Shown here: positions 1,569 to 57,105 of the stretch, one piece after another | How positions within the stretch are numbered: the first letter of the stretch is position 1 | How the letters are laid out: each line of letters begins with the position of its first letter | Source: Gracilariopsis chorda | Taxonomy: Eukaryota > Rhodophyta > Florideophyceae > Gracilariales > Gracilariaceae | NCBI GenBank assembly: GCA_003194525.1 | Contig: NBIV01000185.1 | Location: 1 to 64,000 of the forward strand | DNA length: 64,000 nt | Direction: 5' to 3' | Notes under the pieces: generated by a model | Seen by the model: the letters and a program-made list of their open reading frames with translations, nothing else | Database searches by the model: none | Told to the model about the DNA's origin: nothing | Made by a program: the position numbers and the translations under genes

Positions 1569-3559
1569 CGTGTATATGCCTGGAATGGGCGTGCTGCACG
1601 AGGTGCAAATCATGCCGAACGCCAGAAAATTTGGACTGCGCTGGATAGGCGAACAACGATAGCGAAACAGTGGGAGCGGTATGTTTGTAGAGATATGAAA
1701 GAGGCTGCGAAAGCGTTAGGCGGTATTGCAGGGGAATTAGCACGGTTCTGCAACGAGGCATCTGGCCGACGCCCTGAGCGCCAGCATGAAGTTGTGGTTG
1801 TCGGCGGTGAGGTATAGCGTAGAATGGCGGTCGAAAGGCAAGGTTTGCGCGACAAGGTGAATCGCCGAGGAGGTGTTTGCAGTGAAGATGATTCGTGATC
1901 TTGCGCATTGAAGAAGCGCAATACCGTTGTCTTGGCGCCATGAAAGGCGGCGGTGGCAGCTGAGAACGGCAGTGAGGCCGAATGCGGGATAGCATACACG
2001 TTGGAAGAAATATTTGATATGTGCTGTTCAGGGAGCGACTTCGGCCCGGGACATGCGCCGGTGTAGCCGAAATAGAGGACGTTAGATCGGTCAAGTTGTG
2101 AAAACTGCTTTCGACGCAGTCTAGAAAAGGCGGAAGTGTCGGTCATAGCCAATGGCATCGGTTTGACAGCAGACAAAGAACGAGCGGGCAAACAGCGAGA
2201 AAGAAGAGACGAAGAGGCGTGACCAGGGGAAGGAGGGCGACGCCGGCACGAGCATAGGAGAGCCATGGCTGCTTTAAGCACGTTGGGGCGAAATGCAACG
2301 GCGGTAAAGAACAACAGCGGCCAAAGAGGACCCTCTGCGCAAATGGGCCATGTGTTTGCAGCACCCTCCCGACTTTGCACCAGATTGCAGCAAAAACTTG
2401 GTATCGCACGTCCCGTCACTTTCACAGCGTTTGTCGCCACGCAGATTTAGCGCCACGCAGCGGACCAATCAGCGCCAGCCATGACATGGCGGCGTAATGC
2501 GCCCAACACGCCACCTGCCATTCACGTCTAGACGAGACGGGACGCTCTGCCATCCACAACAAGTCACACACCTGGTTGTACAGCCACCAGCATTTCGTCC
2601 TTTCCTCTCACCATGCCATTGAAGATGATGTGCCTCTTGATCTGCTCAGCGGCATGTTGAGCTGCAACTTGGGCGTAATCACTGTGGAGCAACGCTTTCC
2701 AGTCGGTTGGGAGTTTTTCCTATATATAGGAGTATCCACTGGTGGATTGGTTCGATACCTCATTTATAAGTTGATCCCTCGCGGGATAGCGATGAGGTCG
2801 CACTTGAGGGACCTGGACAGGTATTACTAGTGGCATTCTGGTGACAGATGGTACGCTGTACGCGTGTGGTAATTTCGGTCCCAATTTTGGATATTTAATT
2901 TTATGGTTATCGCCACTTGTGGCCCAGAAAGTGGGAACTCCACGTGTATGGACCTCAAGAGGTGTGCACCAAATTAGTTAATTTATTTAGTTTATTGTGC
3001 TGCAAACCTATTTAGGTAATCACGGCTTCGCCGTCAGCACCACCAGTAAATGGTAACCTTGGTTCTCTTTCGAGATATACTCTTTGCAGAGTAAGGCTCT
3101 GGTAAGAAAGGCCCTCGTAGGGATTACGACTCCTCGCGGAGAGTATCCAAGAGTGGATTCCGTCTACCATCCCCTTGGGAACATTCAGGCGTCACTACTG
3201 CTACAGTATCACTGTGTTCGGTATTGGTTATATGTTCCACTGTCAGTCTTGGATTCCGCCCCAGTATTGGGTTCTTAGTCGTGGTGTTTACCACATTCCC
3301 GTATGGGATTCGTTCTTTATTTTGGTTCGCCCCGTCGCTGGGTCTGTTGCCGCGTGTTGCACGCCCCGTCGCCGGTTCTCTTGGGTTTTCCCTTTTTCCT
3401 TTTGCTTTCCTTCACAGGATATCGTGTCATTATACACTCACGTGTGTACCATCCGTTCCTGGAGTTTACCCTCTTCTGGGCCATTCCCGAACCTCTGCAG
3501 GTATAGCCAGAACCACGTTGGTCTTACAAGCCAGCCTTTACGTGGCGCAGAGGGATCTC
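1569..3559. other. Interior of Harbinger element, no supported gene
   Basis: About 2 kb between the two converging transposon pseudogenes. The first part (to about 2450) is GC-richer with open but unrecognisable frames on both strands. From about 2720 there is a TATA-like run (TATATATAGG) followed by AT-rich sequence, then a pyrimidine-rich stretch (3360-3420). The 2650-3530 segment has the look of a solo LTR or promoter, but I could not find matching target duplications. Confidence 0.4.
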
Positions 3560-5072
3560 TCAACTGAGACTCCATCCCATAGGGAGCGAGGTCTCGAACA
3601 CCTTGAGGGTACTTCCCGCTTCCGGGTTTTGCTCTACCATCACAAAAATCTGTGGCGACTCTTCCTTCTCTGCATCCTCAAACATCATGCTCATGATCTT
3701 CAGCTCGTTGTTTGGGTCCAGCCACTGATTCAGCTCGTCTGCAAACACAAAGGGTGGCATCCGCTCTTCCTCCAGCAGCAAAGAGAAGCAGAATAGCATC
3801 GTGCCACACAATTTTCCTCGCCGCTATTCGCGCATGCACTGATCGCCGTCAGCCCAACGTCTTCCCTATACGACATTAAGATCTGCAGCGCCAGATCTCG
3901 AACTTTCCCCGATTCCGCGTTGATCAACTCCAGATCCCCAGCGCACCTTAATGGTTCTTAAAGGGTAGAAACCTTCACCCCCATCTTCGCAATGCCCTTA
4001 TTAAGCCAACTCAAAAATTCCGCCTTATCTCTTCACAACCGTTCGCGGTTCGATTTAAACCGCTTTTGCTGTTTCTCCACCTCGCGTGCAAGCGCCTCAG
4101 TCTTTCGCTGTCGCGGTTGGAAGCTCTTCCCACAAATATGTCAGCGATAAGCATTTTACTAACACTCTTTTCTATACTTGGGACAATCTGGAACCCAATG
4201 GCCAACCCTCATGAAAAGGATATCGAACGAAGAGTCGTCCCAACCGCATGAAGTGTCGCTTTTTTGCCAGTGAGAAGTTCATACCAAGGTTGTTACATGT
4301 TCTGGTGAATTCATCTTATTGCAGCCTCAACAGCATCGGGTAAATTGTCTTTTGTGACCAAAGACTTTTGATTCTTCACAGGTCTCTTGGCAAGAATGCG
4401 AATGGAATATGGTATTTCCTGAAGGGTTTCGTTCATTTCAATGCGCCGTCGTTTTGGAAAAGACCCTTGGCATATAGGTTGAATCGAATTTGGGTCGTTG
4501 GTACGTTTATAGTTGAATTTCTCTGGTTGAGCTTCTAATTCGCGTTCGGTATTCTGATTTCTTTTCTTCTGCAGGTTTCTATTTTAAATTGTAGCATGCA
4601 TCTTCGCGAGAATTTAATTTTGAACTCGTTAGGCTCTACGCACTGATAAAGGAAATTTTGGATCGCCAATAAGTTTTGGTGTGTAAACTAACTTATCATA
4701 CTTTTTCCTCAGACTTGACACAGTTCTACAGGGTTTTTCATTCCACTTGGCTTATTCATCATATGCTACTTTCACTCTGGCCTATCCGTTCTGACCAATA
4801 GGTTTCACTTCTTCTACAATATCCAGCAGTTTATCTTCGTCTTCATCGCTGTAGTTCTGTGCCCCATATCGTCTCCCATGACCTGGTTCTTCTGCGTCGT
4901 TACAAGAATTTTTGTCTTGGTCTGTGTGGTTGGAATCAGGATAGAGACGTTTTCGAGATGGTGCGAGTGCTACGAGATTTGCAATTGCAATACGAGAGCG
5001 CTGCATGTTGTGTTTAATTTGAATGTATTGTGCAAAAGACGTCGGTGTTATGTAGAATGTCATTCTCGACAA
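3560..5072 (-). pseudogene. Harbinger Myb/SANT-like DNA-binding partner protein, broken
   Basis: Role if intact: DNA-binding partner that brings the transposase to the element ends. Seen, reading down the minus strand from 5072: an N-terminal segment, then NYSDEDEDKLLDIVEEVKPI, a tryptophan-type Myb/SANT helix start. After it, in the same frame, come the remaining Myb helices and a segment KLIGDPKFPLSVRRA, typical of the Harbinger Myb-like family. Two in-frame stops lie in this domain, at positions where the family has Trp. Further down (about 4110-4040) is a charged coiled-coil stretch (REVEKQQKRFKSNRERL) and a C-terminal helical segment near 3930-3800. The frame changes at least once. The transposase relic lies on the opposite strand of the same element. 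Confidence 0.7.
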
Positions 5073-5236
5073 ACCGAAACAGTTGAGTATCTAAGCAGAA
5101 CGGCGGCCGGATTGTTGCAGCTGTTCGTGTTATGAATACTGACAAGTGCACATGAAAAGAAACCTTGCACCTACGTGTAACTTTTGAGCAGTGTAGATTC
5201 TAAGCAAGGGAATGTCGCTACTGCTGAGGTCTGGGA

Positions 5237-5273
5237 AAACTGTGAAACTGTGATTTCTCGGATCCTCCCAGTG
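5237..5273 (-). repeat. Right terminal inverted repeat of Harbinger element
   Basis: Inverted copy of 138-174, followed by TA at 5274-5275. The pair defines a 5136-bp element. Confidence 0.85.
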
Positions 5274-5275
5274 TA

Positions 5276-5807
5276 GACGCAGCTTCGTGTACCAGCGTCA
5301 CGTCTGTGTGACTGGAGCCGGCCGTGCTGATCACGAGTCCTATCAAAGCCCGGAATCTGTCGAGCGGATAATCTAGTTTTTGGCGAAGTCATGAGTATTT
5401 TCTGGTAGACGTGTCAAGACTTGGGAGGTGAAACAAATGCCGTTATTGTGAATGCCATTGGTCAGCTCCACAAACTGTGATCTCGTTTTGTCTTTTAGAG
5501 GAATAAAGAAATTTAGCGCTCGCGAGGCAGCGCTTGCGCCTAGTCAGAGCTGGCGCATTGCCATTTTGACACCTGGTACAAATGAATGCCGAACGTTCAT
5601 TGGTCGCTCGCATATCCGAGCGACCGACATCTGGAGTTCCTTTCTCCTTCCCTTTCTATGCGGCCTTATACATGTGTATCTCATTCCCACCGCACTCACG
5701 CTCGCATTTCATTCACCGTCTTGCAGAGCACGCTGCTCTTGTCATTGGCTTTTGTACCTTCGCATTGCTCAACGCCAATTTCAGACCTTTTTACGCTCTC
5801 CGCGAGT
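5276..5807. other. Intergenic and presumed 5' region of the NLR-like gene
   Basis: No gene recognised. The open frame of the downstream gene extends upstream to an ATG at 5586, but that extension (74 codons) has no domain character and I treat it as 5' leader. Confidence 0.4.
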
Positions 5808-8800
5808 ATGGCAGCGATTTCAGCATCCGCAGCCATTGGCGCATTAGTTCTTTCTGTCGTCAAAAAGGGCGAAGAAGCAGTCAACAAATGGTACGAACGC
5901 AAGGACCTCACCGAAGATAACAAGAGCCTTCTTCAGCGAATTCAACGCCACTACGCCCAACTCGAGCGACTGATCCCTCGCATTGAACACATTCTATCCC
6001 ATGATATCATCGGCAAGGCCAAACTCGACCGTTTGCTGCAGAACTTGGAACAAGATACTGACGCTCTCAACTCATGGGAGCCACAAATCGGAAGTGCAAA
6101 CCCTGCGGACCGCGTCCGAAGAATGCATCACATTTTGAAGCGGTGTGCAGAAGATCTGGAGAAGCTCTTCAGCTTTTTCGATGAAAGGAATGCAGCCGTT
6201 TTGCAATCTTCTACATCGGGGAACGATTTTTACGAGCGAGCTAATACTGTTCCCGTCAACCCGCCGCGACTCACTTTAGACTACAATAACACTGCTACAT
6301 GCGAAGGAAAACTGAAGGCCGCAGTGCTTAGAAAACAGAATTGTCGGGTTGTTGGCTTTGTAGCCTCTGGGAAAGGAGGAGTAGGTAAGACATGCGCCGT
6401 CCGAGGGCTTGCAGAAGATCCTGAAATCGAGAAAGAGTTTTCTGGTGGTACTCTCTACATTCAACTCGGAAACGACGCAACGATTAATCATGTTATCAGT
6501 GGTCTGGCAAAAGTTGTGAAAAGCACTGGGGGTGCAAAGCTGTCTGAGAAGGTAAACAACAGTAAGACGCTGCAAGAAGCATCAGAAGAAGCTTCAGATT
6601 GGTTCCGCAAGCAAACATGCTTGTTTCTGGTAGATGACATATGGCGTATGAATGGCATCGACTCTGAAGTTCTCACTATTCTTGGCTCAATGGTGAACAA
6701 GACCAGTCGCTTAGTGTACACTAGCAGAGACAAACACTTTCTAGACCTGGCGCATGAAGTAATTAAGTTTGAGGGAACCGAGACAGACCGTGCGCGGTCC
6801 AGGAAGATGTTATTGAAACACGGTGGGTTTCCGGAAACCACCGAGCTGGACCAGAGAAACAAAGATGCATTTGAAGCCATCCTAGATGAATGCCAAGGAC
6901 TTCCGCTTGCATTTGGCATCGCTGGGGGTGTTGTTCGCAGACTGTCCGATCGGCAACAGAAAGACCGAGAACAAGATGCGTGGTCAGATGTTCACAGAAT
7001 GATTTCACACCCGGAGCATTCGGTGTTGTTGAATGAACAGGCTGAGCCGTACGGTAGCCTAAACAGAATTGTAGATGTGTCTCTTCAAGTTCTGGGCAAG
7101 CGCTATCAATCGGAAAATTACGAGAGAATGTTTCGAGCACTATGTATCCTTCAAAAACAACAACGAGCGCCAGTGAGCATGTTGCAAAAGGTATGGAATC
7201 TGGACAGTCTGGATGACACGGAGAAGGCCGCAGAAGCTATGGACGATTTGTCTATTGTACAGCTGCGAAAGCATAATGACGCATTGTGCGTGGAGTTACA
7301 TGACTTGGTTTTGGACATTGCAACAGACAAGGCGTTGAAGGCTTACGAAACTCAAAGCTTTTTCCGAATATTGATTGACAAATACACTCGAACTCAGCAA
7401 GATTGGTGGAACATTGAGGACGATGGCTACTTGCATAACAATCTGTGCAGGGTATTGCGGTGCGCCGGGAACGTTGATGAGCTGTTGCAACTTTTGTCAG
7501 AGCCGAAATGGATTGTATATCGCTTGATGAATGGAGGAATCAACAGCTTACAACAAGACCTGAAAGAAGGAAAGTCTGTTCTTCCTGTCAATGGGAATGA
7601 TTCGGGCTACAGAGAGCACTTGGAGATGATAGGCAAGGCTGCTAGGCTGGGATGCACTTTTTTTGAGGGAAACGAACGTGAGATTTATTTTCAGCTATAC
7701 GGACGCTTGTTATGGCATGCATCGCGAAATGACAAGACGCAAGAGTTCCTGAAGAAGTTGGAAGATCGTGCACCAAGACCGTGGGTCAAGGCATCGATGG
7801 GACTCTTGCCACAAGCAGGCAGCGGTGCTCTTGACTTCATCTCGAGCAGCGGCACGGTGCTTGGTATTCATCAGGAGGAGGAAACCATTTCGTTCATCTG
7901 GAGTACTGACGAGAGACTAGGTGTTTCTCAGTATAACACATCAACCGGCCTATCCCAGACAGTTGACTGTGTACATGAAAGCGTGGTGTTCCCGGCGCAA
8001 TGTGCGGCCTTCCTGATTGATCAGTGCACTATTGTGAGTGCTCACAAAGGTGAACGTGACGGAACGTTGAAGTTAATTTTTTGGAGCAGGAAAACTGGTG
8101 AGATGGAGCGGGTGGTTGAGTTGAAAAAACCGAAAGGAAAGAGATCGCCTCGACGCTGGCGAGACATGTGGTCAAGAGGCGTTGGAAGTAGTAGAAGTGG
8201 AAGCGAGAGAAAGCAACCGCAGCAGCATCTGGAGGTTTTGGGTTTTTACGAAGACGGCACGCGAGTGGCAACGGCGGACAGAATTAATTACGCAATACAA
8301 GTATGGGACGCGCAGAGTGGAGCGGCGGTTGGAGAGCCTCTCCGCGGCCACACTGGAAGGGTGTGGTGCGTGGCCGTGAGCGCGGACGGGACGCGCATTG
8401 TGTCGGGGTCGCGTGACAAGACGGTGCGCGTGTGGGACGCGCAGAGTGGAGCGGCGGTTGGAGAGCCTCTCCGCGGCCACACTGGTGGGGTGTGGTGCGT
8501 GGCCGTGAGCGCGGACGGGACGCGCATTGTGTCGGGGTCGGATGACAAGACGGTGCGCGTGTGGGACGCGCAGAGTGGAGCGGCGGTTGGAGAGCCTCTC
8601 CGCGGCCACACTGATGGGGTGAGGTGCGTGGCCGTGAGCGCGGACGGGACGCGCATTGTGTCGGGGTCGGATGACGAGACGGTGCGCGTGTGGGACGCGC
8701 AGAGTGGAGCGGCGGTTGGAGAGCCTCTCCGCGGCCACACTGGTGGGGTGTGGTGCGTGGCCGTGAGCGCGGACGGGACGCGCATTGTGTCGGGGTCGCG

Positions 8801-9572
8801 TGACAAGACGGTGCGCGTGTGGGACGCGCAGAGTGGAGCGGCGGTTGGAGAGCCTCTCCGCGGCCACACTGATTGGGTGACGTGCGTGGCCGTGAGCGCG
8901 GACGGGACGCGCATTGTGTCGGGGTCGATTGACGAGACGGTGCGCGTGTGGGACGCGCAGAGTGGAGCGGCGGTTGGAGAGCCTCTCCGCGGCCACACTG
9001 ATTGGGTGACGTGCGTGGCCGTGAGCGCGGACGGGACGCGCATTGTGTCGGGGTCGGATGACGAGACGGTGCGCGTGTGGGACGCGCAGAGTGGAGCGGC
9101 GGTTGGAGAGCCTCTCCGCGGCCACACTAGTTGGGTGACGTGCGTGGCCGTGAGCGCGGACGGGACGCGCATTGTGTCGGGGTCGTATGACGAGACGGTG
9201 CGCGTGTGGGACGCGCAGAGTCAAAAACAGGTCGGTACTGCGATTTTGCACGAAACCGAGGTTTATGCTGTTGCATGGAGCGCAGATTGCTCTCGAATAG
9301 CAACGCAAGACGGATTGAGAACAAGGCTGTGGGACGCTCAGAGGAGAGTGTGCGTGCTCACGTCAGACGACGACGCGTGGCAGTCGACCGTGCACTCTCT
9401 CAATCTTTCATGGTCAACAATCAAGTGGCACCCATCAGCTCGGCAGGTGACAGCGCGTGGCGAGAACGGCTCCGAAATGGTGCTGGCCACCAGCGAGAGT
9501 GCAGTACAGAATATTTGTGGTGGCGACGTTTACTGGGGGCATGAATTCGAATCGTGTGCAATTATTCGCTGA
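5808..9572 (+). CDS. NLR-like protein: helical N-terminus, NB-ARC ATPase, WD40 repeats
   Basis: Likely an intracellular signalling or recognition ATPase of the STAND/NLR class (APAF1, plant NLRs and fungal HET-E-like proteins are known relatives in architecture). 1254 residues from the ATG at 5808 (context GAGTATGG). Residues 1-140 are strongly helical with a hydrophobic first helix (AAISASAAIGALVLSVV), resembling a four-helix death-effector bundle. NB-ARC follows: Walker A GKGGVGKT (188-195), Walker B LFLVDDIW (272-279), RLVYTSRD (301-308) and GLPLA (364-368), then winged-helix and helical linker sequence to about 800. From residue 832 come seven 43-residue WD40 blades, nearly identical at DNA level, then two or three degenerate blades to the end. 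Ends in TGA. Single exon, no visible defect. The repeat section is much GC-richer than the rest of the gene. The upstream ATG at 5586 is an alternative but less likely start. Ligand and output are unknown. Confidence 0.88.
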   Translation: MAAISASAAIGALVLSVVKKGEEAVNKWYERKDLTEDNKSLLQRIQRHYAQLERLIPRIEHILSHDIIGKAKLDRLLQNLEQDTDALNSWEPQIGSANPADRVRRMHHILKRCAEDLEKLFSFFDERNAAVLQSSTSGNDFYERANTVPVNPPRLTLDYNNTATCEGKLKAAVLRKQNCRVVGFVASGKGGVGKTCAVRGLAEDPEIEKEFSGGTLYIQLGNDATINHVISGLAKVVKSTGGAKLSEKVNNSKTLQEASEEASDWFRKQTCLFLVDDIWRMNGIDSEVLTILGSMVNKTSRLVYTSRDKHFLDLAHEVIKFEGTETDRARSRKMLLKHGGFPETTELDQRNKDAFEAILDECQGLPLAFGIAGGVVRRLSDRQQKDREQDAWSDVHRMISHPEHSVLLNEQAEPYGSLNRIVDVSLQVLGKRYQSENYERMFRALCILQKQQRAPVSMLQKVWNLDSLDDTEKAAEAMDDLSIVQLRKHNDALCVELHDLVLDIATDKALKAYETQSFFRILIDKYTRTQQDWWNIEDDGYLHNNLCRVLRCAGNVDELLQLLSEPKWIVYRLMNGGINSLQQDLKEGKSVLPVNGNDSGYREHLEMIGKAARLGCTFFEGNEREIYFQLYGRLLWHASRNDKTQEFLKKLEDRAPRPWVKASMGLLPQAGSGALDFISSSGTVLGIHQEEETISFIWSTDERLGVSQYNTSTGLSQTVDCVHESVVFPAQCAAFLIDQCTIVSAHKGERDGTLKLIFWSRKTGEMERVVELKKPKGKRSPRRWRDMWSRGVGSSRSGSERKQPQQHLEVLGFYEDGTRVATADRINYAIQVWDAQSGAAVGEPLRGHTGRVWCVAVSADGTRIVSGSRDKTVRVWDAQSGAAVGEPLRGHTGGVWCVAVSADGTRIVSGSDDKTVRVWDAQSGAAVGEPLRGHTDGVRCVAVSADGTRIVSGSDDETVRVWDAQSGAAVGEPLRGHTGGVWCVAVSADGTRIVSGSRDKTVRVWDAQSGAAVGEPLRGHTDWVTCVAVSADGTRIVSGSIDETVRVWDAQSGAAVGEPLRGHTDWVTCVAVSADGTRIVSGSDDETVRVWDAQSGAAVGEPLRGHTSWVTCVAVSADGTRIVSGSYDETVRVWDAQSQKQVGTAILHETEVYAVAWSADCSRIATQDGLRTRLWDAQRRVCVLTSDDDAWQSTVHSLNLSWSTIKWHPSARQVTARGENGSEMVLATSESAVQNICGGDVYWGHEFESCAIIR
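8301..9203 (+). repeat. Seven tandem 129-bp WD40-coding repeats
   Basis: Period exactly 129 bp (43 codons), seven units with no length variation, each beginning VWDAQSGAAVGEPLRGHT. Among units only codons 19, 20, 22, 38 and 40 vary (residue sets G/D/S, R/G/W, W/R/T, R/D/I/Y, K/E). The one other difference is the first Val codon, GTA in unit 1 and GTG elsewhere. Such homogenised repeats imply frequent gene conversion or unequal exchange, with variation kept at exposed positions. Confidence 0.95.
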
Positions 9573-10796: not shown

Positions 10797-11702
10797 ATGT
10801 TTGTGCAACTTCCATCTGCTCTTCTCATTGCGATCTTCCTCTCAACCATCGTACTTTCAAGTGCGAAATGCCCCCCAGGAACGGAAGGTGATAAATGCAC
10901 ACCATGTCAACCCGGTTACTATTCCTCAACAGCCGGTTCAGCTTCCTGTACCATTTGCCCAGCTGGAACATTCAATAACTGGATGCGGGCAAGCTCCTCC
11001 AAGGCGTGCAGACTGTGCCCGAAAGGGTTCATAAGTTCGCGCGGTAGCGATCAATGCTACCCGTGCCAGCCGGGGTATTACGCCGATCTTCCTGGCCTGC
11101 AATCTTGCCGAAAGTGTCCGGCCGGGACGTACAGCGTGACCGTTGGTGCCACCTCATCGTCGTTATGTTGGCCGTGTCCGAAGGGAAACACTAGTCGACG
11201 AGCAAGCAACCAATGCTTGCCATGTAGCGCAGGGTATTACGCCGATCGCATCGGATCTGACTCTTGTAAACGCTGTCCGTCTGGAACTTACGGAACATTC
11301 ATGGGGGCGATATCGGTGCATGCATGCAAGAAGTGCCCGCGAGGTTGGTTTAGTCGGGGATCTGCTTCTACAGCGTGCACGAAGTGTGGGGCTGGATATT
11401 ATTCCGATAAGGTGGGATCCAGTTCTTGTAAGAGATGTGCAGCTGGCACGTTCAGTCGCGCCGTCGATGCTACATCAAGCGCGGCGTGCAAGCCGTGCCC
11501 TAAGGGAACATACAGTCGGTCGGCTTCGATTAGCTGCCTCAGCTGTTGGGCAGGTAGTTTTGCGGCCACACCGCGTTCTCGTAGTTGTACGAGATGCTCC
11601 TCCGGTACTTTTGGAACGATCGTTGGTGCGAAGTTTCAGGGCGTTTGTCGGCGATGCCCGTTTGGGAGGAAGAGTCGGAGTGGCTCCACGTATTGCTATT
11701 GA
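10797..11702 (+). CDS. Secreted cysteine-rich protein with GCC2/GCC3 (ephrin-receptor-like) repeats
   Basis: 301 residues. A cleavable signal peptide is visible (residues 1 to about 23, hydrophobic core LLIAIFLSTIVL, then SSA-K). The rest is a series of cysteine-rich repeats of the form C-x-x-C-x-x-G-[YT]-[YF]-x(10-12)-C-x-x-C, for example CTPCQPGYYSSTAGSASC and CRKCPAGTYSVTVGATSS, about ten half-repeats in all. This is the GCC2_GCC3 / ephrin-receptor-like fold, known from extracellular proteins of many eukaryotes, where it makes disulphide-rich rods. No transmembrane segment or GPI signal is obvious, so it is likely secreted or in the cell wall. The frame is intact and ends in TGA. Partner and role are unknown. 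Confidence 0.85.
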   Translation: MFVQLPSALLIAIFLSTIVLSSAKCPPGTEGDKCTPCQPGYYSSTAGSASCTICPAGTFNNWMRASSSKACRLCPKGFISSRGSDQCYPCQPGYYADLPGLQSCRKCPAGTYSVTVGATSSSLCWPCPKGNTSRRASNQCLPCSAGYYADRIGSDSCKRCPSGTYGTFMGAISVHACKKCPRGWFSRGSASTACTKCGAGYYSDKVGSSSCKRCAAGTFSRAVDATSSAACKPCPKGTYSRSASISCLSCWAGSFAATPRSRSCTRCSSGTFGTIVGAKFQGVCRRCPFGRKSRSGSTYCY

Positions 11703-15837: not shown

Positions 15838-17316
15838 ATGGAACTCAATACCAATCTCCCGGTACCCATCTTCAACGTCCTCAAGTACCTTTTCATAACA
15901 CTAGCAATCGATGGAGTAGTGCGCAGTGGCCTTGACGGGTTTGAGCATTTCCGTCGCCGTCTCTCTCTACACCGAGGCTACTCCGTTCACTTTGAAAGTA
16001 CTCGAATAGATCGTTACAACCTTCTTCATCAAATCTCCTTCTGTCGCTTCTCTTCTCTCGTCCTCCTCTTCATAACGTTAGCAGCCTATGCCGTTGAGAT
16101 CGGCCTCGAATTCGCCACAGACTCCAAAGCGACTCGTTTTCCGATAGCTGGGACCGTTAGGCGTCTGAACTACACGCGTGGAGTATGCTCGCTAGACACG
16201 ATCATCTACCGCACAAACGCAAACCAATTTGCGCGTCTTGCCGAGGAATGTATCGTATTGGAAGACAACAAATATCGACTTTACCGCCCTATATGGATCA
16301 CCAGTCCGGAAGACTCAGCTCAACCTCTGTGCGAACCTACGCCAGGAAACTTGCTTTATGAGAGCGGAGAGGTCTACGAGTCTTTGCATGGGAAAGGTGC
16401 ACAGGCGGCACGTGAGCTGGATCAGCTCATAAGAACCATGCGCGCACACTCGTACAAATCAAATGGCGATGTGAACCGTTCCTTCATTTCCATGCAAATC
16501 ACTTCTAAGGACATTGTCGGAAAGTTTCCGTATCGCATGAGGGACACAGAATATTTCACATCTGCCGTCTTCATCAAGCTTCTGGGCAAAACCGGAGTCA
16601 AATGCATAGGCACCGTATATGGCCGTCACGGCGAAGGTATGATGCGAGTGATGATGCTCGCCTGTACTAATGGTTTCACGGAGAACGGCACACTTTCCTA
16701 CGCACAGGGAACCGGTTTAGTGGAGATGGATGTCGGGGATGTAGACGGAAATTGGAGCACCATAATTGCTGTTGAAAGCCGTCGTTTCGTGTACCAGTTT
16801 GCGAGGGGAGTTGTAGGGGAACAATTTCAAACTAATGCTGTTGCCTATGCTGCTTTCCTCGCCGTGTCCCGAGCGGAAGATAAGATCAACGTGAACAAGT
16901 ACGCCATCGCATACCGTAATTGCAAGCAGTTGTCCGTTCCCTCTCGAAATCCTGAATCATGGGTTGAGAGCATTCCTTTCTACCGCTCAGAGCCCCGCAT
17001 TACTGCTACTGTTGAACTTTGGGCGATCATAGTTCTAGTGTGCTGGCTGGTCGTGGTCACCGCTGCACGAATTCTGCTTCATGCAGTAGCAAATCACAAG
17101 GGAATGCCAAACAGACTGCTCGGTGAACAGCAAATGGTCTGCCGATGGGTAGAGGAGAAGGAACGAGAAAAGCTGAGTGGGGAAGGTAATGATTCTATAG
17201 AGCCGTGCAAGAGGGGGTACTTGTCGGTCGAGAACGGAGATTTCAAAGATTGCATCACAGCAACAAAACGTCCCAGAAACATAATCCGTGATAGAAGAAA
17301 AAGCTTCAGTCCTTAA
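15838..17316 (+). CDS. Two-pass membrane protein with large ectodomain, paralogue 1
   Basis: 492 residues, ATG at 15838; the paralogue starts at the same Met, supporting the start. Residues 1-70 contain a conserved amphipathic segment (VLKYLFITLAIDGVV) and a basic stretch. TM helix at about 71-90 (SSLVLLFITLAAYAVEIGLEF). Residues 91-390 are a presumed ectodomain with conserved cysteines (117, 138, 165, 256, 276, 362) and N-glycosylation sequons (NYT 111, NGT 283). A second TM lies at about 394-417 (LWAIIVLVCWLVVVTAARIL). The tail is charged and presumed cytosolic, ending in a basic IIRDRRKSFSP. Not a family I recognise. Topology suggests a surface protein with both ends inside. The tandem copy at 18814 and relic at 22857 show a local family. 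Ends in TAA. Confidence 0.8.
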   Translation: MELNTNLPVPIFNVLKYLFITLAIDGVVRSGLDGFEHFRRRLSLHRGYSVHFESTRIDRYNLLHQISFCRFSSLVLLFITLAAYAVEIGLEFATDSKATRFPIAGTVRRLNYTRGVCSLDTIIYRTNANQFARLAEECIVLEDNKYRLYRPIWITSPEDSAQPLCEPTPGNLLYESGEVYESLHGKGAQAARELDQLIRTMRAHSYKSNGDVNRSFISMQITSKDIVGKFPYRMRDTEYFTSAVFIKLLGKTGVKCIGTVYGRHGEGMMRVMMLACTNGFTENGTLSYAQGTGLVEMDVGDVDGNWSTIIAVESRRFVYQFARGVVGEQFQTNAVAYAAFLAVSRAEDKINVNKYAIAYRNCKQLSVPSRNPESWVESIPFYRSEPRITATVELWAIIVLVCWLVVVTAARILLHAVANHKGMPNRLLGEQQMVCRWVEEKEREKLSGEGNDSIEPCKRGYLSVENGDFKDCITATKRPRNIIRDRRKSFSP

Positions 17317-18813: not shown

Positions 18814-20277
18814 ATGGAACTCCATACCAGTCTCCCGGTACCCGTCTTTAACGTTCTCAAATACCTTCTAATAGCACTAGCAACCGATGGAGTGGTGCGA
18901 AATGGTCTTGACAGCTTTGAACATTTCCGTCGCCGTCTCTCCTTCTATCGCGGCTACTCCGTTCAATTCGAAACCACTCGGATAGATCGCTACAACGTCC
19001 TTCACCGAATCTCTTTCCGTGACTTCTTATCTCTGTTCCTCCTCTTCATAACTTTGGCAGCCTATGGCGTTGAGATCAGTCTCGAGTTCGCTACAGACTC
19101 TAGAGCTGTCCGCTTTCGGATAGCTGGGAACGTTAGGCGTCTAAACTTTACACGTGGAGTATGCTCTTTGGACACCATCCTCTACCAAGAAAATGCAAAC
19201 CGGTTCGCGCGTCTTGCTGAGGAATGTGTAGTCTTGGAAAACGGTATGTACCGACTCTACCGTCCTATTTGGATAATCAGTCCAGAAAAAACCCCTCAAC
19301 CTCTCTGCGAGCCTACCTCCGAAAACCTACTTTATGAGAGCAAAGAGGTGTACCATGCTTTGGAAGGCAAAGGAGAACAAGCAAAACGTGAGATTAAAGA
19401 GCTCCTTCGAACGATGAGCTTACACTCGTATAAATCAAATGGCGATGCGAAGCGTGCGGTCATCTCCATGCGCATCACTTCTAAGGATGTCGTAGGGAAG
19501 TTTGTGCACGAAGATGCCGATGCACTTCCCATCATATCCGCGGCCTTCATCAAGCGTCTATCTAAAACTGGAGTCAAATGTTTTGGCACTGTGCGTGGCC
19601 GTCACGGCGAAGGTATGATGCGACTCGCAATGCTTGCCTGTACCAACGGTTTCACGGAGAACAGCACAATGTCGTATGCAGAGGGAACCGGTTTGGTTGA
19701 GATAGATGTCGAAGATATAGACAAAGAATGGAGCACCATAATTGCTGTCGACAACCGTCGTTCCTTGTATCAATTTGCGAGGAAAGTTGTGCGAGAACGA
19801 CTGGAAAACAATGCCGTAGCTTTTGCCGTTTTTCTTGCAGAATCACGAGCGCAAGATAAGATCAATGTGAACAAGTACGCCATCGCATACCGTAATTGCA
19901 GAAAGTTGTCCGTTCCCTCTCGAAATCCTGAATCATGGATTGAGAACGTTCCAATCTCCAACTCAGAGCTACGTACGACTGCTACAGTTAAACTTTGGGC
20001 GATTGTAACTCTGGTGTGCTGGCTGGTCGTGGTCACCGCTGCACGAATTCTGCTTCATGCAGTAGCAAATCACAGGGGAATGCCAAACAGACTGTTCGGT
20101 GAACAGCAAATAGTCTGCCTTTGGGTAGAGGAGAAGGATAGAGAAAATCATGACTGCATAGAAAAGTGCAGGAGGGCGTACTTGTCAGTTGAGACCGGAT
20201 ACTTCAAAGACCACATCACAGCAACAAGACAACCAAAAGACATAATCCGTGATAGAAGAAAAAGATTCAGTCCTTAA
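18814..20277 (+). CDS. Two-pass membrane protein with large ectodomain, paralogue 2
   Basis: 487 residues, tandem copy of the 15838 gene with the same architecture. TM1 is about residues 71-90 (SLFLLFITLAAYGVEISLEF), the ectodomain keeps the same cysteine positions, TM2 is near residue 395 (TLVCWLVVVTAARILLHAV), and the tail ends IIRDRRKRFSP. The two TM regions and the stretch from the ectodomain end into the tail are nearly identical between copies. The middle of the ectodomain differs most, for example the segment around residues 228-240. This suggests either partial gene conversion or relaxed or diversifying change outside the membrane. Frame intact, ends in TAA. Function unknown. Confidence 0.8.
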   Translation: MELHTSLPVPVFNVLKYLLIALATDGVVRNGLDSFEHFRRRLSFYRGYSVQFETTRIDRYNVLHRISFRDFLSLFLLFITLAAYGVEISLEFATDSRAVRFRIAGNVRRLNFTRGVCSLDTILYQENANRFARLAEECVVLENGMYRLYRPIWIISPEKTPQPLCEPTSENLLYESKEVYHALEGKGEQAKREIKELLRTMSLHSYKSNGDAKRAVISMRITSKDVVGKFVHEDADALPIISAAFIKRLSKTGVKCFGTVRGRHGEGMMRLAMLACTNGFTENSTMSYAEGTGLVEIDVEDIDKEWSTIIAVDNRRSLYQFARKVVRERLENNAVAFAVFLAESRAQDKINVNKYAIAYRNCRKLSVPSRNPESWIENVPISNSELRTTATVKLWAIVTLVCWLVVVTAARILLHAVANHRGMPNRLFGEQQIVCLWVEEKDRENHDCIEKCRRAYLSVETGYFKDHITATRQPKDIIRDRRKRFSP

Positions 20278-31142: not shown

Positions 31143-33710
31143 AATGTTTGCAGGGAATGTTTACGAATACCACTACCTTTGCCGCCACGCCATTTAGACT
31201 TGATGCTTTGCGTTATTCTGCCCTCCCACAGCCGCACGTGTTGGCCTTGGAAATTCACGTTGCCTTCTTTCCTCCTTCGTGAGGTTTTGAAGCCCTTCTG
31301 ACATTCCATTCGGTAATCCAGCTCTGAATCTCGATAGTAGATTGCTTGCAGCGATATTTTTGAATGCTACGAGCCTTCTAGACCTGAGATAAGAGTTTGA
31401 TTTGACAAAGGGCTTGTGGCTGAGGGTGCAGTTGCATCTTCTTCGGTTCCCCAAGTAACACTTTGACAGGTATGGAAGGCGTGTCAACCCGTTTTCTGAG
31501 CGCTTTTGGGAACGCCCTTATGCATTGACATCTGTTTCACTTTGGGTACGAACATCAACGCCAACTGCGCAGGCACAGTTCCCAACGGGGCTTGAGGTTT
31601 CTCAATCTATGACATATCCTGTTCTTTAAGTTGCTCGTGCCAACAATCGTTACTACACCTTCAGACCGTCGAAACACAAGCCAACCGGCCAATCCGTATC
31701 AGAGGGCAGTAAATCGTGTGGAAGAGAAGGTGAAATAATCATCGACTTCCCCAAGCGAAACATCGACGAAGAAACCCAGAATTCCGATGGCCTGGAAGAA
31801 CGTTGTTGGTCATCTCGTTGCAAAACGGTTCACAGTTGGGGGCGATACAAAGCTAGTATTCTTACAGATCACTGCTGCGTTCCTGTAAAGACTCAGTTCA
31901 TGTATGGTGAATTACGAGATGGAATGGGAAGTGCAGTTAACATTTGTACGTCACTTGTCATCAGCACACGATCACCAGGGGCAGAACGTCATGCGCTGTC
32001 AGGAGTTGTACCCGTGTTCGACCGTGCCAAGAGAGAGAAGCGAAAATGGTTGGTATCGAGGCCTGTTCTCCGCAAGAGACCGACAACAAACAACAGCAGT
32101 ATCCATCAGGAGTACAGACAGCGAAAAACGCCAATGCGCATGCACTTCGTGTATCACAGACCACGCTGCTTGTTTTGCTTCCATTAGAGATGTGTAGCAC
32201 CCGCTGTTCGCAATATGTGGTGCATAGGGCACAGAGAAAGTACTCTGACCGTACCGTTACGTTGCAGTAGAGAAGTAGACTCCCCACTGGATTCGTCGCA
32301 CCAAATGCTCAGTACAAGCCCGATGTTCACTTTCAGCTTATTCTCTTCTACAGCACAAATGCAACGGATCAATGTGTAACCCTCTACCCTGCAAGTGCTT
32401 TCCGTAAACTACGTACATACCCTTCCAATGGGCCTGCCTCTCCAGCAGATATGAGACAGAACCCTATCATTCAGCAGAACACAATATGGCTTACAACACA
32501 GGTGCCAGCGGTCAATGTACTGCTTGTTCTTTCTTTTAAATCCACCTCCACAAGCAATCTGAAACGAATCCGCAATCTGTCCCCTGAACCTGCACAGTAT
32601 TAGCTACTTTAGTGTTCAACTTCTCGAATTCGTTTCCAAACAACCGTCTAATTTGTCCAATTCGTTTCCAGACAACCGGCCATTTTCTCCAATTCGTATC
32701 CAAACAAGAGGCGAAAAGCCTCCAGCAAGCTATTTTCAATCTGTCTGCTGTCTCTCCCCACGTGGTTTACAGACAAATTGCCCAGAGGATGAACAACACT
32801 GCTTACAACGTATCTTTGAAAGACCGATATCTACATGCACTCTCAGTCACGACATGCCCACCATCAACTCATCGCATTAGCTTATTCGAACTATCCATCT
32901 GTAGCGGTGAAGAAGATGATGTGTTAATGCAAGTCATCAAGTTCTGCGCTGGACATTCTGTTTGCAAAGATTGATGCCTTAAGCAGCTACGCAAAACCTT
33001 GACCTTGCTTTTTTCTCTCTGCTCTTCCGAACGAGTACTTCACATTGCTCAGAGAACGCGTGTTGCTGCTCTATAGCTTTGTTCCGGAAGAGCTCTTAGG
33101 GGATCCCCTGTTGCGGTTTTTTAATCATCCACCCTACCCACTGGAGCAGCTCTTTGTCCTAAAGGGATACTTGCATCAAGTTCCACTGAAATAAATGCTA
33201 CGCCAAGTTTCCACCTGGTAGCTACTCTACAAAATTCAGTAAAGAGTTGCGCGGACAAGGAGCTGCGATGCATAAACAGCTCAAGAATGGCGTCTCACTT
33301 CTACACGACGCCCGACGTGTCGATACCATTCGTTTGGGATGCCCACGATTGCAGCGAAAGCAATAGCGGCCACGTCACGCTGAGACATTTCGTACCTGTC
33401 CAGTGTTATGTCACGGTCATGAAAGCGTATAATATATCCAAACGCCACAACTCTTTTATACCGAACCCCTCTCACATCTGATCTTTGATGGCGAAACTGG
33501 ATGAATCCATGGGAATTGAAACCAGTTTTCTTTTCAATTCAAAAAGATACCAAGTTGCTGAGATGTATACGAGGATACTGTCGGTACTCATTTAATTCCA
33601 AACCCACCCCGCTCCGTAAGAATAGATTTCCCTCTCGTCATTTCTAAATGCTTTCCAATTTGTCAGCCACGTACTCGATGCAGCATGACTTGAATGCCTA
33701 CAGGCTCCAG
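31143..33710. other. Unit interior between paralogue and intact gene (unit 1)
   Basis: No supported gene. There is a non-ATG open stretch at 31630-32187 (185 codons) of no known kind, faint traces of the paralogue's tail up to about 32550, the 32-bp triplicate at 32623-32718, and short frames at 32612-32974 and 33287-33481 that may be chance. Equivalents: 39941-42509 and 54341-56908. Confidence 0.4.
32623..32718 (+). repeat. Three tandem 32-bp repeats (unit 1)
   Basis: Units share the core AATTCGTWTCCARACAA with exact 32-bp phase. Not CRISPR: there are no spacers. Copies in other units at 41421-41516 and 55821-55916. Confidence 0.75.
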
Positions 33711-33724
33711 TGTTAGTCTGAACT
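33711..33724 (+). promoter_or_regulatory. Conserved upstream block of the intact array gene (unit 1)
   Basis: TGTTAGTCTGAACT 197 bp upstream of the ATG at 33908; also at 42510-42523 and 56909-56922. A second block TACAGTGTACTTTGGTT starts at 33856, 52 bp upstream. Both are shared in position with the decayed paralogue, which suggests promoter or initiator function. Confidence 0.5.
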
Positions 33725-33907
33725 GATTGACGGGTAACGTTGGTCAACTCTCTTCCGGTGAGCACGGCATGATCTGCTATTCTTGCGCAAATCTCTTTGA
33801 ACACATTTGGCCAAGACAATTCTCTTTTACGATTCTCTGTATCTCGCATTGTTCCTACAGTGTACTTTGGTTAGAACCGTATTGTGTCTTTACTTGAAAA
33901 GAATTCA

Positions 33908-36268
33908 ATGGATGCAAGCGCGGGAATGAATCCGACCACTGAGAGCGAGGCAGCCAATCTTGTCTCTCTCTCGGAGCAGAACAAAGAGGATGTGAAGCTT
34001 CCGAGCCCAGAGGACATCTTTTTGCAGAAGATGATGTCTAATGTCTCGCAAAACATGGATTTGCCAGGGAAGTTGCACTTTGATCCAGTCGCAGATATCC
34101 AGGAGCTCGAGCGTCAACAATCGATTATGCGGGTTTCGGAAGGCAGAAAGAAGAGCTTGGCAGCCCCAGATAAGAACAATGTTTCTGAATCTCTCACCCA
34201 GAATCATGGATCAGAACAGAGTTTAAAGAAACCCGTGGGAACCAGCTGCGCTGTCAGGAATGCGAACACTCAGACCAAGATAAACGAAAGTAGTCAAGAC
34301 AAGCATGGCAGTACAACCATGTCGAATGATCCTCAAGATTCTGACGCAGTTACACTTGCAAACCTCCAATTCTTGAAAGGATTTCTGGATGACAACGGGA
34401 ACGTGAGATCCAAAAACCAAGCACAACTCACGAATCCAGGTCACGCAAACAAACCTCCAAGATATTCAGCACGAAGCTTGCAGAAAAAGGACTCCAGAAA
34501 GGGGTCCTCACTCAATCATCCAAGAAAACCGTCGGGGATTTCCAAACCCAGAGGAAATGAGAAGCGGCAAGAGAGGGGTGCACCAATCCCGGGGACACAC
34601 AACAATAACTTAAATCCCAAGAACACACATACACATAGGGCCGGAAAGAACAGGTGTATAGACCGCAATGTGGTCGAGCAGGTTCCGTCACGAGGCCAGA
34701 TTGCCCTTCTACTTAATGATGGTGCGTATGAACAAGCCATGAAGTTCCTAGATACTAAATGGCTCTCAAATGGGCACGCTGCAGCTGGACCACCTTCGAA
34801 CGTGCAAGCTCGACCTATACCAGCTGCTGCACCAGACGCAGCAAAGCGTGAAGTGGCAGGATTATGGAACGATATCGGAACCGCTATTCCGATAGTGAAT
34901 AATCGCAGATTGAATTCTTGTCCGACCCAATCATGGGCGCCCCCCCCAGCCCAACATGTTGCATCAAGGCCTTTGGAGACCAGTGACGATTCTGGTCCAC
35001 ATTACGTACAAAATCCATCCTTTCGTGCAGTGTCGGCCTTGATGAACGATGAAGTTTACGACAGCGCAATGAGAGCCTTCGAAACTCTCCAATCAACAGC
35101 ATGGAGAAATGCAAGTGTTAAATGTCGAAACGGAAGGCAGAATGCCCACAAAGCACAAGCGCGCTCAACTGAGACCCCTTCAAAGAGGATTGGGATACCG
35201 AAAAGCCGCAAACAAGTCCGTCGTTCTTCATTTTTTTGCGAGTCCGCAGGTGCCGGTAGTACAAAACCTGCTGCTCGCGCATCTCATGGAATCCGTACAA
35301 AGCCGCCTTCAGTAGACCGAACGCGTTCAACGCCACAAGCTCAGTCGGTTCGTAGCAGGTTACATCGGCCGCTTGTTAATAACGAAAGGTATCATCCCGA
35401 ATTGCAATCTGCTAGCAACTTTCATGCAACTGGAATTCGTGCGACTCAACCTTCGCTAACATATCCCACTCAGCCTCGCCACTCCCATGTCCCTCAAGCA
35501 CTCCATCTGGCACCGGGAATGGAGGCAGCCTCTACACCATATGCTTGTCTTCGAAGCACGACTGTCGGGCATCCTTCGGCATCGAACGGTCAACACAACA
35601 TCGCTTTTCCAGCCCAGTCATTTATTCCTTGCAATACAATAGCAACGGGTCAATATGCGCAGTCCACAAACATACCCACCACACACTTTTATCACACTGT
35701 ACCTCATCTGTCTTCTTTCAATACTGGTCACGAGCCTATTCTTCAGTTTAATAATACTATTCCTTCCACCTCGGCTGGAACTGATCGATATGTCCAAAAC
35801 TCTCAATACCTCCCCGTACCGAACTACCAGCAGCCTCTCCACAATGTGAGTGCAATTGCTGCAAATCAACATTACAATCGAGCCATTGATACGAATCTCA
35901 TTCCAGCTTACAATGCAACTGACAGCGCTCAAAACGCGCAGACTCTGCAAGCTGCATCTACAACAAACTACCGTTGGCGTCAAGAGTACGAACAAACTGT
36001 GCCAAACGTGACGTTGCCTACGGTTCCGGCACATATACCACTCGATCGGATTGCTCAGATGAATCAAAGCGCTACTCAGCATATATCTAGTGGCAATCGA
36101 CTTGCATGGGCAGATCAAAACAAAGCCACAGCAAACTCACCACCACCCGTGCCCGACCTGCATGCATTTCTTACAAACTTGCAACAGAGTCCACAAACTA
36201 CCGGCAGCATTCCTGCCGCTCAAACACAACAAGCCGCGAATGCTTACAAACCACACCAACGTGGTTAG
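33908..36268 (+). CDS. Array gene, 786-residue low-complexity protein of unknown function (copy 1)
   Basis: ATG at 33908 chosen because the paralogue starts at the equivalent Met; the frame is open 8 codons further up but only from a GTG. The N-terminus (1-75) is helical and acidic, with EDIFLQKMMSN and IQELERQQSI. 100-250 is polar and basic. A 28-residue motif occurs twice: at about 257-284 (VEQVPSRGQIALLLNDGAYE) and 368-395 (VQNPSFRAVSALMNDEVYDS), a probable helical hairpin. A basic cluster KSRKQVRR (432-439) could be a nuclear signal. 470-786 is Gln/Asn/Pro/Thr-rich and likely disordered, ending near PPPVPDLHAFLTNLQQSPQT. No signal peptide, TM or catalytic motif. Not recognised. The make-up would suit an RNA- or protein-scaffold role, but that is speculation. 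Three copies in this window. Confidence 0.75.
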   Translation: MDASAGMNPTTESEAANLVSLSEQNKEDVKLPSPEDIFLQKMMSNVSQNMDLPGKLHFDPVADIQELERQQSIMRVSEGRKKSLAAPDKNNVSESLTQNHGSEQSLKKPVGTSCAVRNANTQTKINESSQDKHGSTTMSNDPQDSDAVTLANLQFLKGFLDDNGNVRSKNQAQLTNPGHANKPPRYSARSLQKKDSRKGSSLNHPRKPSGISKPRGNEKRQERGAPIPGTHNNNLNPKNTHTHRAGKNRCIDRNVVEQVPSRGQIALLLNDGAYEQAMKFLDTKWLSNGHAAAGPPSNVQARPIPAAAPDAAKREVAGLWNDIGTAIPIVNNRRLNSCPTQSWAPPPAQHVASRPLETSDDSGPHYVQNPSFRAVSALMNDEVYDSAMRAFETLQSTAWRNASVKCRNGRQNAHKAQARSTETPSKRIGIPKSRKQVRRSSFFCESAGAGSTKPAARASHGIRTKPPSVDRTRSTPQAQSVRSRLHRPLVNNERYHPELQSASNFHATGIRATQPSLTYPTQPRHSHVPQALHLAPGMEAASTPYACLRSTTVGHPSASNGQHNIAFPAQSFIPCNTIATGQYAQSTNIPTTHFYHTVPHLSSFNTGHEPILQFNNTIPSTSAGTDRYVQNSQYLPVPNYQQPLHNVSAIAANQHYNRAIDTNLIPAYNATDSAQNAQTLQAASTTNYRWRQEYEQTVPNVTLPTVPAHIPLDRIAQMNQSATQHISSGNRLAWADQNKATANSPPPVPDLHAFLTNLQQSPQTTGSIPAAQTQQAANAYKPHQRG

Positions 36269-39940: not shown

Positions 39941-41420
39941 AATGTTTGCAGGGAATGTTTACGAATACCACTACCTTTGCCGCCACGCCATTTAGACTTG
40001 ATGCTTTGCGTTATTCTGCCCTCCCACAGCCGCACGTGTTGGCCTTGGAAATTCACGTTGCCTTCTTTCCTCCTTCGTGAGGTTTTGAAGCCCTTCTGAC
40101 ATTCCATTCGGTAATCCAGCTCTGAATCTCGATAGTAGATTGCTTGCAGCGATATTTTTGAATGCTACGAGCCTTCTAGACCTGAGATAAGAGTTTGATT
40201 TGACAAAGGGCTTGTGGCTGAGGGTGCAGTTGCATCTTCTTCGGTTCCCCAAGTAACACTTTGACAGGTATGGAAGGCGTGTCAACCCGTTTTCTGAGCG
40301 CTTTTGGGAACGCCCTTATGCATTGACATCTGTTTCACTTTGGGTACGAACATCAACGCCAACTGCGCAGGCACAGTTCCCAACGGGGCTTGAGGTTTCT
40401 CAATCTATGACATATCCTGTTCTTTAAGTTGCTCGTGCCAACAATCGTTACTACACCTTCAGACCGTCGAAACACAAGCCAACCGGCCAATCCGTATCAG
40501 AGGGCAGTAAATCGTGTGGAAGAGAAGGTGAAATAATCATCGACTTCCCCAAGCGAAACATCGACGAAGAAACCCAGAATTCCGATGGCCTGGAAGAACG
40601 TTGTTGGTCATCTCGTTGCAAAACGGTTCACAGTTGGGGGCGATACAAAGCTAGTATTCTTACAGATCACTGCTGCGTTCCTGTAAAGACTCAGTTCATG
40701 TATGGTGAATTACGAGATGGAATGGGAAGTGCAGTTAACATTTGTACGTCACTTGTCATCAGCACACGATCACCAGGGGCAGAACGTCATGCGCTGTCAG
40801 GAGTTGTACCCGTGTTCGACCGTGCCAAGAGAGAGAAGCGAAAATGGTTGGTATCGAGGCCTGTTCTCCGCAAGAGACCGACAACAAACAACAGCAGTAT
40901 CCATCAGGAGTACAGACAGCGAAAAACGCCAATGCGCATGCACTTCGTGTATCACAGACCACGCTGCTTGTTTTGCTTCCATTAGAGATGTGTAGCACCC
41001 GCTGTTCGCAATATGTGGTGCATAGGGCACAGAGAAAGTACTCTGACCGTACCGTTACGTTGCAGTAGAGAAGTAGACTCCCCACTGGATTCGTCGCACC
41101 AAATGCTCAGTACAAGCCCGATGTTCACTTTCAGCTTATTCTCTTCTACAGCACAAATGCAACGGATCAATGTGTAACCCTCTACCCTGCAAGTGCTTTC
41201 CGTAAACTACGTACATACCCTTCCAATGGGCCTGCCTCTCCAGCAGATATGAGACAGAACCCTATCATTCAGCAGAACACAATATGGCTTACAACACAGG
41301 TGCCAGCGGTCAATGTACTGCTTGTTCTTTCTTTTAAATCCACCTCCACAAGCAATCTGAAACGAATCCGCAATCTGTCCCCTGAACCTGCACAGTATTA
41401 GCTACTTTAGTGTTCAACTT

Positions 41421-41516
41421 CTCGAATTCGTTTCCAAACAACCGTCTAATTTGTCCAATTCGTTTCCAGACAACCGGCCATTTTCTCCAATTCGTATCCA
41501 AACAAGAGGCGAAAAG
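41421..41516 (+). repeat. Three tandem 32-bp repeats (unit 2)
   Basis: Copy of 32623-32718. Confidence 0.75.
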
Positions 41517-56908: not shown

Positions 56909-57105
56909 TGTTAGTCTGAACTGATTGACGGGTAACGTTGGTCAACTCTCTTCCGGTGAGCACGGCATGATCTGCTATTCTTGCGCAAATCTCTTTGAAC
57001 ACATTTGGCCAAGACAATTCTCTTTTACGATTCTCTGTATCTCGCATTGTTCCTACAGTGTACTTTGGTTAGAACCGTATTGTGTCTTTACTTGAAAAGA
57101 ATTCA

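Follow-up and report, generated by a model that had tools for sequence, protein, structure and literature searches.

Homogenised WD40 repeats with five hypervariable codons in a putative NB-ARC receptor gene of the red alga Gracilariopsis chorda

What kind of gene carries seven repeats that agree at nearly every base and differ at the same few codons, and what could keep them so? We addressed this question for a gene near the start of a 64,000-nucleotide stretch of DNA from the red alga Gracilariopsis chorda (GenBank assembly GCA_003194525.1, contig NBIV01000185.1, positions 1 to 64,000; the whole stretch is called the window, and forms the start of contig C185). A sequence-only reading had described the repeats as the WD40 part of an NLR and proposed a fungal-style recognition receptor, possibly of an alga, whose repeats are exchanged. 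Our analyses suggest that the gene probably encodes an intracellular STAND/NLR-type receptor with a WD40 sensor reshuffled by recombination; its immune or allorecognition role is putative and read from sequence. The parts of the repeat array are as follows.

8301..9203, plus strand: seven near-identical 129-bp WD40 units (unit comparison, Tandem Repeats Finder)
8355..8366, plus strand: unit 1 codons 19-22, of which 19, 20 and 22 vary; the offsets repeat every 129 bp in units 2-7
8412..8420, plus strand: unit 1 codons 38-40, of which 38 and 40 vary and Asp39 is invariant; the offsets repeat every 129 bp
9204..9221, plus strand: start of an eighth unit, 18 bases identical, divergent afterwards
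9222..9569, plus strand: C-terminal WD40-like region, divergent and mostly of low confidence in the model (sequence, structure model)
8220..9233, plus strand: modelled beta-propeller, aligning over its full length with solved propellers, eight-bladed ones best (model)

Unit-by-unit comparison confirmed the seven uninterrupted units, each exactly 129 bp and in frame with an open reading frame (ORF) ending at 9572. Only unit bases 3, 55, 56, 57, 58, 64, 65, 112, 113 and 118 vary, the remaining 119 being invariant, and they map to codons 1, 19, 20, 22, 38 and 40, exactly those named before; ten random variable bases among 129 fell in six or fewer codons with a frequency of 0.0007. Codon 1 (GTA/GTG) changes silently and in unit 1 only, and codon 19 encodes glycine in units 1, 2 and 4 alike, as GGA in the first and as GGT in the other two, so that the earlier claim that every difference inside the variable codons alters the residue did not hold. 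The units share 38 to 42 of 43 residues pairwise, with a mean protein identity of 0.918 over the seven (divergent flanking blades not counted), and thus exceed the internal identity of 0.7 that marks the highly repetitive WD40 class. Tandem Repeats Finder reported 8304-9221 (period 129, 7.1 copies, 96% matches), and the WD40 profile matched the window protein in seven stretches (7.9e-86). Written by their variable residues, the unit types are, in order, GRW.RK, GGW.DK, DGR.DE, GGW.RK, DWT.IE, DWT.DE and SWT.YE. Opposite the array, a minus-strand open frame of 378 amino acids (aa) at 8172-9308 is probably a by-product of repeat composition.

We compared the window gene with its copies in the 91.3-Mb, 1,081-contig assembly, and found copies whose differences are almost confined to the array. 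The window and locus L090 (C66:314813) show no difference in the 3,506 bp before the array (window 4795-8300) and three mismatches in the 1,717 bp after it (99.8% identical), and yet the L090 units (GRW.DE, GSW.DE, a frameshifted unit, GRW.DE, GSW.EE, SWT.YE) have only the last type, SWT.YE, in common with those of the window. Over the 4.8 kb further upstream the two differ in 17 alignment columns, 13 of them gaps, all within the contig's first 2,225 bases, five additional columns being bases that precede the contig start. Locus L091, with 13 mismatches and one gap in the 2,493 coding positions before the array, has six units, and three of their types (GRW.RK, DWT.DE and SWT.YE) also occur in the window. 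Elsewhere in the family, the four units of L096 correspond by their variable residues to units 1, 3, 7 and 8 of L095, with flanks about 99% identical, and L109 has nine units vs seven in L107 and L108; both repeat number and variable codons thus differ among paralogues. When codons 19/20/22 were set against codons 38/40 (18 units, the frameshifted L090 unit excluded), two four-gamete quartets emerged, which indicate exchange inside blades or recurrent change. The proposed repeat exchange is therefore supported by these quartets and by the identical 3,506-bp flank beside different arrays, with the exception of two pairs of copies that keep their arrays (see below).

The variable codons occupy particular places on the repeat. 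A published WD40 sequence rule defines the top-face contact sites R1-2, R1 and D-1 (PMC3419727), and by this rule, applied to sequence rather than to coordinates, codons 20, 22 and 38 are those three sites and codons 19 and 40 their neighbours. All window units agree at the positions of the D-H-S/T-W tetrad (39, 17, 41, 45). The variable WD40 positions given for fungal HET-D/E (PMC12222747) are 10, 11, 12, 14, 30, 32 and 39; if our inferred offset of eight holds, codons 19, 20, 22, 38 and 40 correspond to 11, 12, 14, 30 and 32, so that five of the seven vary in the window and positions 10 and 39 do not. Under the same offset, the probability that five variable codons all fall within these seven positions of 43 is 2.2e-5. 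Placement of the variation at top-face contact sites, in line with the fungal parallel drawn earlier, is thereby supported by sequence rule for three codons, the other two being adjacent.

We then examined silent and replacement differences, estimating the proportions of replacement (pN) and silent (pS) differences from pairs of distinct units, with recombination not modelled, at the five codons vs 25 other codons. Group A (window, L090 and L091; 14 distinct of 19 units, including one frameshifted L090 unit) exhibited a pN of 0.36 at the five codons vs a pS of 0.0036 in the 25 others, and the corresponding values were 0.41 and 0.087 in group B, and 0.27 and 0.074 in group C. Within the five codons, pN/pS was about 1.8 to 2.6 across the three groups. 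The units are thus homogenised at silent sites, and in the window the striking feature is the concentration of differences in five codons; the overall silent/replacement ratio is not.

Upstream of the array, the gene has the parts expected of a putative nucleotide switch.

5808..9572, plus strand: one-exon gene of 1254 aa plus stop, with helical N-terminus, NB-ARC, APAF-1-like region and WD40 repeats (ORF, Pfam)
5808..6287, plus strand: N-terminal domain, modelled at low confidence as four long helices and common to diverged paralogues (17-sequence alignment A1; model)
6309..6938, plus strand: NB-ARC, residues 168-377 (Pfam PF00931, 4.2e-15, 56.1 bits vs cut-off 23.5)
6369..6392, plus strand: P-loop GKGGVGKT, residues 188-195 (motif reading)
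6618..6644, plus strand: Walker B CLFLVDDIW, residues 271-279 (motif reading)
6897..6911, plus strand: GLPLA motif, residues 364-368 (motif reading)
7122..7316, plus strand: winged-helix region, APAF-1-like (PF21296, 13.7 bits, under the cut-off of 27)
7296..7313, plus strand: MHD-like motif LHDLVL, residues 497-502 (motif reading)
7359..7589, plus strand: APAF-1 helical-domain-like region (PF17908, 1.4e-4, 22.3 bits, just under the cut-off of 22.8)

What we take to be the P-loop, Walker B, GLPLA and MHD-like motifs occur in that order, and together with the NB-ARC match and the C-terminal WD40 repeats they bear out the NLR architecture proposed from the letters alone. An in-frame ATG upstream, at 5586, would give 1328 aa; we favour 5808 as the start because the first ATG of paralogue L091 is equivalent to 5808 and none of its ATGs to 5586. 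The winged helix exceeded the cut-off of 27 in paralogue L107, one of seven scanned (PF21296 27.2 bits, Dark_WHD 29.6 bits), whereas PF17908 reached 20.1 bits in L107 and was not listed for the six others. By sequence, the closest solved structures to residues 1-785 are APAF-1 (2.2e-9) and then the probable disease resistance protein At5g66900 (1.8e-5), which we take to be an NRG1. The N-terminal domain was modelled with a mean predicted local distance difference test score (pLDDT) of 60.7 and a predicted template modelling score of 0.49; a four-helix bundle of the plant CC/RPW8 or MLKL-type cell-death kind is a possible reading of it. Alignment A1 comprises 17 N-terminal sequences, L092 being excluded for an in-frame stop near its start; a Pfam scan of these 17 gave nothing convincing among the best 25 of 65 families (best 3.7e-4, WASH_WAHD, in one member), nor did a PDB profile search with the N-termini (best E 0.0089).

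The gene belongs to a family in this genome. In a profile search, at least 54 NB-ARC matches passed the cut-off (such a count is a minimum where families are large), and 33 of the 54 fall in the 36 loci (window plus 35) that match the window gene. A lone NB-ARC match means little, because six of 14 control genomes also gave one, three of them over the cut-off. In 13 of the 36 loci (window, L090, L091, L092, L094-L097, L107-L109, L121 and L123, the units of L123 being more diverged than those of the other 12) at least four WD40 units matched the pattern, so that homogenised arrays characterise certain lineages of the family and not all of it. The algal host considered earlier is supported by two genes. 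An ORF with a phycobilisome domain (28.1 bits when the genome was searched, 26.7 for the ORF itself, cut-off 22.2) lies on a contig of more than 122 kb, and the start of this ORF looks like a transit peptide; the same search matched one of the 14 control genomes (Synechococcus). Outside cyanobacteria, phycobiliproteins are found in red algae, glaucophytes and cryptophytes. The second gene codes for a close relative (1,766.7 bits) of the alpha-1,4-glucan lyase 2x2h, presumably a structure from the red alga Gracilariopsis. The same family includes TIR-NB-ARC genes, as at L115:464-1855 (TIR_2 2e-13, NB-ARC 6e-13); the N-terminus of L116 is like that of L115, L114 and L124 are alike in DNA, and genes of this TIR group carry in-frame stops.

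We asked how far this pattern extends. In a scan of prokaryote genomes (80 loci fetched), 34 further frames had four or more pattern matches, and 11 of these passed a filter that required four units with 80% identity to the medoid; arrays missed by the pattern, such as L002, L014, L020 and L025, stand outside this comparison. Across the 11 arrays, the highest mean entropy was found at codons 38, 19, 22, 20 and 40, the same five as in the window, with exceptions among the eight codons printed per array (L006 without 22 and 40, L008 without 20 and 40, L033 without 22, L039 without 20). Not all 11 are independent, because L037 and L071 both carry Methanobrevibacter titles and L039 and L042 are both from Moorena. 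The non-WD40 part was scanned for all but L007, L008, L019 and L037, and all seven scanned gave STAND- or AAA-type NTPase matches, namely NACHT, nSTAND1 or AAA_35, or, in L071, another ATPase below the cut-off. These results suggest that highly repetitive, STAND-linked WD40 proteins share the pattern as a broader class, within and outside fungi. A scan of viral contigs found no relative.

Highly repetitive WD40 proteins are described as having diverse hotspot sites, in a set of 305 that is 50% bacterial and 36% fungal, with none from animals or plants (Hu et al. 2017, PMC5587647); red algae are not named in the available text of that study. With this class we group the cyanobacterial WRAP-type STAND propellers as a close known system. 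The window gene resembles the fungal HNWD proteins (HET-D, HET-E and HET-R of Podospora) in near-identical WD40 units, matching variable positions, a repeat number that differs among copies and a STAND ATPase preceding the array; it differs from them in unit length (43 residues vs 42) and in having NB-ARC and a helical N-terminus where HNWD have HET and NACHT. Neither HET nor NACHT was among the Pfam families listed for window residues 1-785 and 1-181, and on that ground we rejected membership in HNWD proper; NB-ARC matched instead. The fungal-style receptor of the sequence-only reading hence survives in its variable positions, whereas the style is not specifically fungal and the domains differ. 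NB-ARC plus WD40 proteins of red algae are already in print (PMC8891106; PMC6928737), and TIR-NBARC-WD40 has been reported in Chondrus (PMC9806590). The window gene shares domain order and host group with the NB-ARC/WH/APAF1_C/WD40 proteins of algae (an Ulva study with rhodophyte members, Pyropia, Chondrus); the available parts of those accounts do not mention homogenised repeats with hypervariable codons. A search of open-licence papers, mainly by title and start of abstract, yielded no account of such WD40 repeats in red algae; a sensor of this kind would be the new aspect here. Brown-algal LRR-ROCO candidate receptors likewise combine repeat shuffling with selected sites on a binding face, although their LRR motifs lie on separate exons with alternative splicing and the WD40 blades here in one exon; brown-algal NB-ARC-TPR candidates are grouped with them by the title of the publication.

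Together, these results are consistent with a receptor in which the WD40 ring would act as ligand sensor, probably binding ligand on its top face, NB-ARC as nucleotide switch, activated presumably by oligomerisation, and the N-terminal helical bundle as output domain. Unequal crossing-over and gene conversion could homogenise the seven blades while five top-face contact codons per blade remain diverse. Blades would be gained, lost and swapped, and the 19/20/22 cassette exchanged against the 38/40 cassette within a blade, which would produce new binding faces and leave the switch untouched. The output may serve defence or the distinction of self from non-self, probably through regulated cell death; the expression of Pyropia relatives given below speaks for this reading of the gene.

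Several observations, among them the imperfect contig ends treated below, weigh against such a receptor. In addition, 23 of the 36 family loci are without four or more pattern-matched units; turnover is not universal, since the near-identical pair L107/L108 has identical unit codes and the near-identical pair L094/L095 has the same eight units in order with one residue different; and the candidate output domain would rest on the model with pLDDT 60.7. The remaining points bear on an amplification without recognition, in which WD40 scaffold blades were recently duplicated and the variable codons are sites that tolerate change. The five positions may simply be tolerant ones of the WD40 fold, and their lead in the arrays of other organisms could reflect unconstrained positions; the window alone gives no replacement excess (8 of about 96 replacement sites vs 2 of about 33 silent sites variable, Fisher P = 1); and pS is raised at the five codons as well (0.14 in A, 0.18 in B, 0.15 in C). 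Neutral drift, however, predicts silent variation elsewhere, which the group A values contradict, while identical switch domains carry different arrays and contact sites are documented at three of the five codons; we consider amplification of this kind unlikely.

An assembly artefact, with array differences arising where reads near contig ends were wrongly joined or insufficiently polished, appears similarly improbable. The end of C66 and the start of C185 overlap by about 12.2 kb, without any difference from window 2226 to 8300, and may be overlapping contigs of one locus; indel-type differences lie near the C185 start and C66 end, and two 2-bp insertions that disrupt L090 unit 3 may be assembly errors. 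Compared with the first C66 copy, the C66 end shows 35 gap openings vs 5 mismatches, a profile resembling unpolished long-read errors. The first C66 copy carries a 6.3-kb insertion at window 12235 that starts at the same place in the second, and the window lacks it. The C66 end and C185 may therefore be alleles or tandem copies, or else contigs that were joined imperfectly. Against an artefact, GSW.DE and GSW.EE of L090 occur in neither the window nor L091, so that mixing those two cannot yield L090 and a third array is its simplest reading; L091 lies inside C66, with its 13 coding differences in 2,493; the window array is uninterrupted; and groups B and C also differ in unit number and order between copies. 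Allorecognition at the fusion of algal individuals (somatic incompatibility), as for het-d/het-e, is a special case of the reshuffled receptor, and its odds overlap with it; we regard it as possible but doubtful. Sensor design and variable positions match HET-D/E, and red seaweeds are said to coalesce and form chimeras (PMC5325190), but the domains differ from HET-D/E, and in Pyropia three of seven listed NB-ARC plus WD40 transcripts rise in both stages of oomycete (red rot) infection (PMC6928737), pathogen-responsive expression of relatives that points to defence as well.

If the reshuffled receptor is correct, the family offers a concrete way for red algal receptors to keep up with pathogens or to discriminate self from non-self: a fixed switch joined to a ring whose exchangeable blades differ only at probable contact points. 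The same design, with matching residues, is reported in fungi and was seen here in the arrays of prokaryotes, and its presence in an archaeplastid family suggests repeated invention or deep retention of a single means of evolving recognition. It is very unlikely, in our estimate, that WD40 arrays diversify within the life of one alga, by recombination in somatic or clonal lines that would leave several variants per individual; C66:314813 and the window gene are what such diversification would leave, and very recent duplication, allelic difference or assembly error fit too. Were it true, it would amount to an adaptive-like repertoire in a red alga. A diversity-generating retroelement was rejected as the source of variation, since the variable sites are not adenine-only (the first base of codon 38 takes all four, others A/G, A/T or C/G), a template repeat not having been searched for. 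Among ten window ORFs scanned, the reverse transcriptase ORF at 49586-52717 also has RNase H and integrase, as in a retrotransposon-type polyprotein and not in a diversity-generating retroelement.

Directly downstream of the receptor gene, at 10797-11702, lies an ORF with cysteine-rich ephrin-receptor/TNFR-like repeats, and its region recurs beside two C66 copies (100%, rounded) and the C172 copy (89%); receptor and neighbour may therefore travel as a pair. Three element copies with the same ORF pattern occupy 31944-36268, 40742-45067 and 55142-59466, the first two 8.8 kb apart, and the 794-aa ORF of the first has no Pfam match. The adjacent ORFs at 15838-17316 (492 aa) and 18814-20277 (487 aa) are 79% alike in DNA and without Pfam match, and a relative of them lies at C45:127692.

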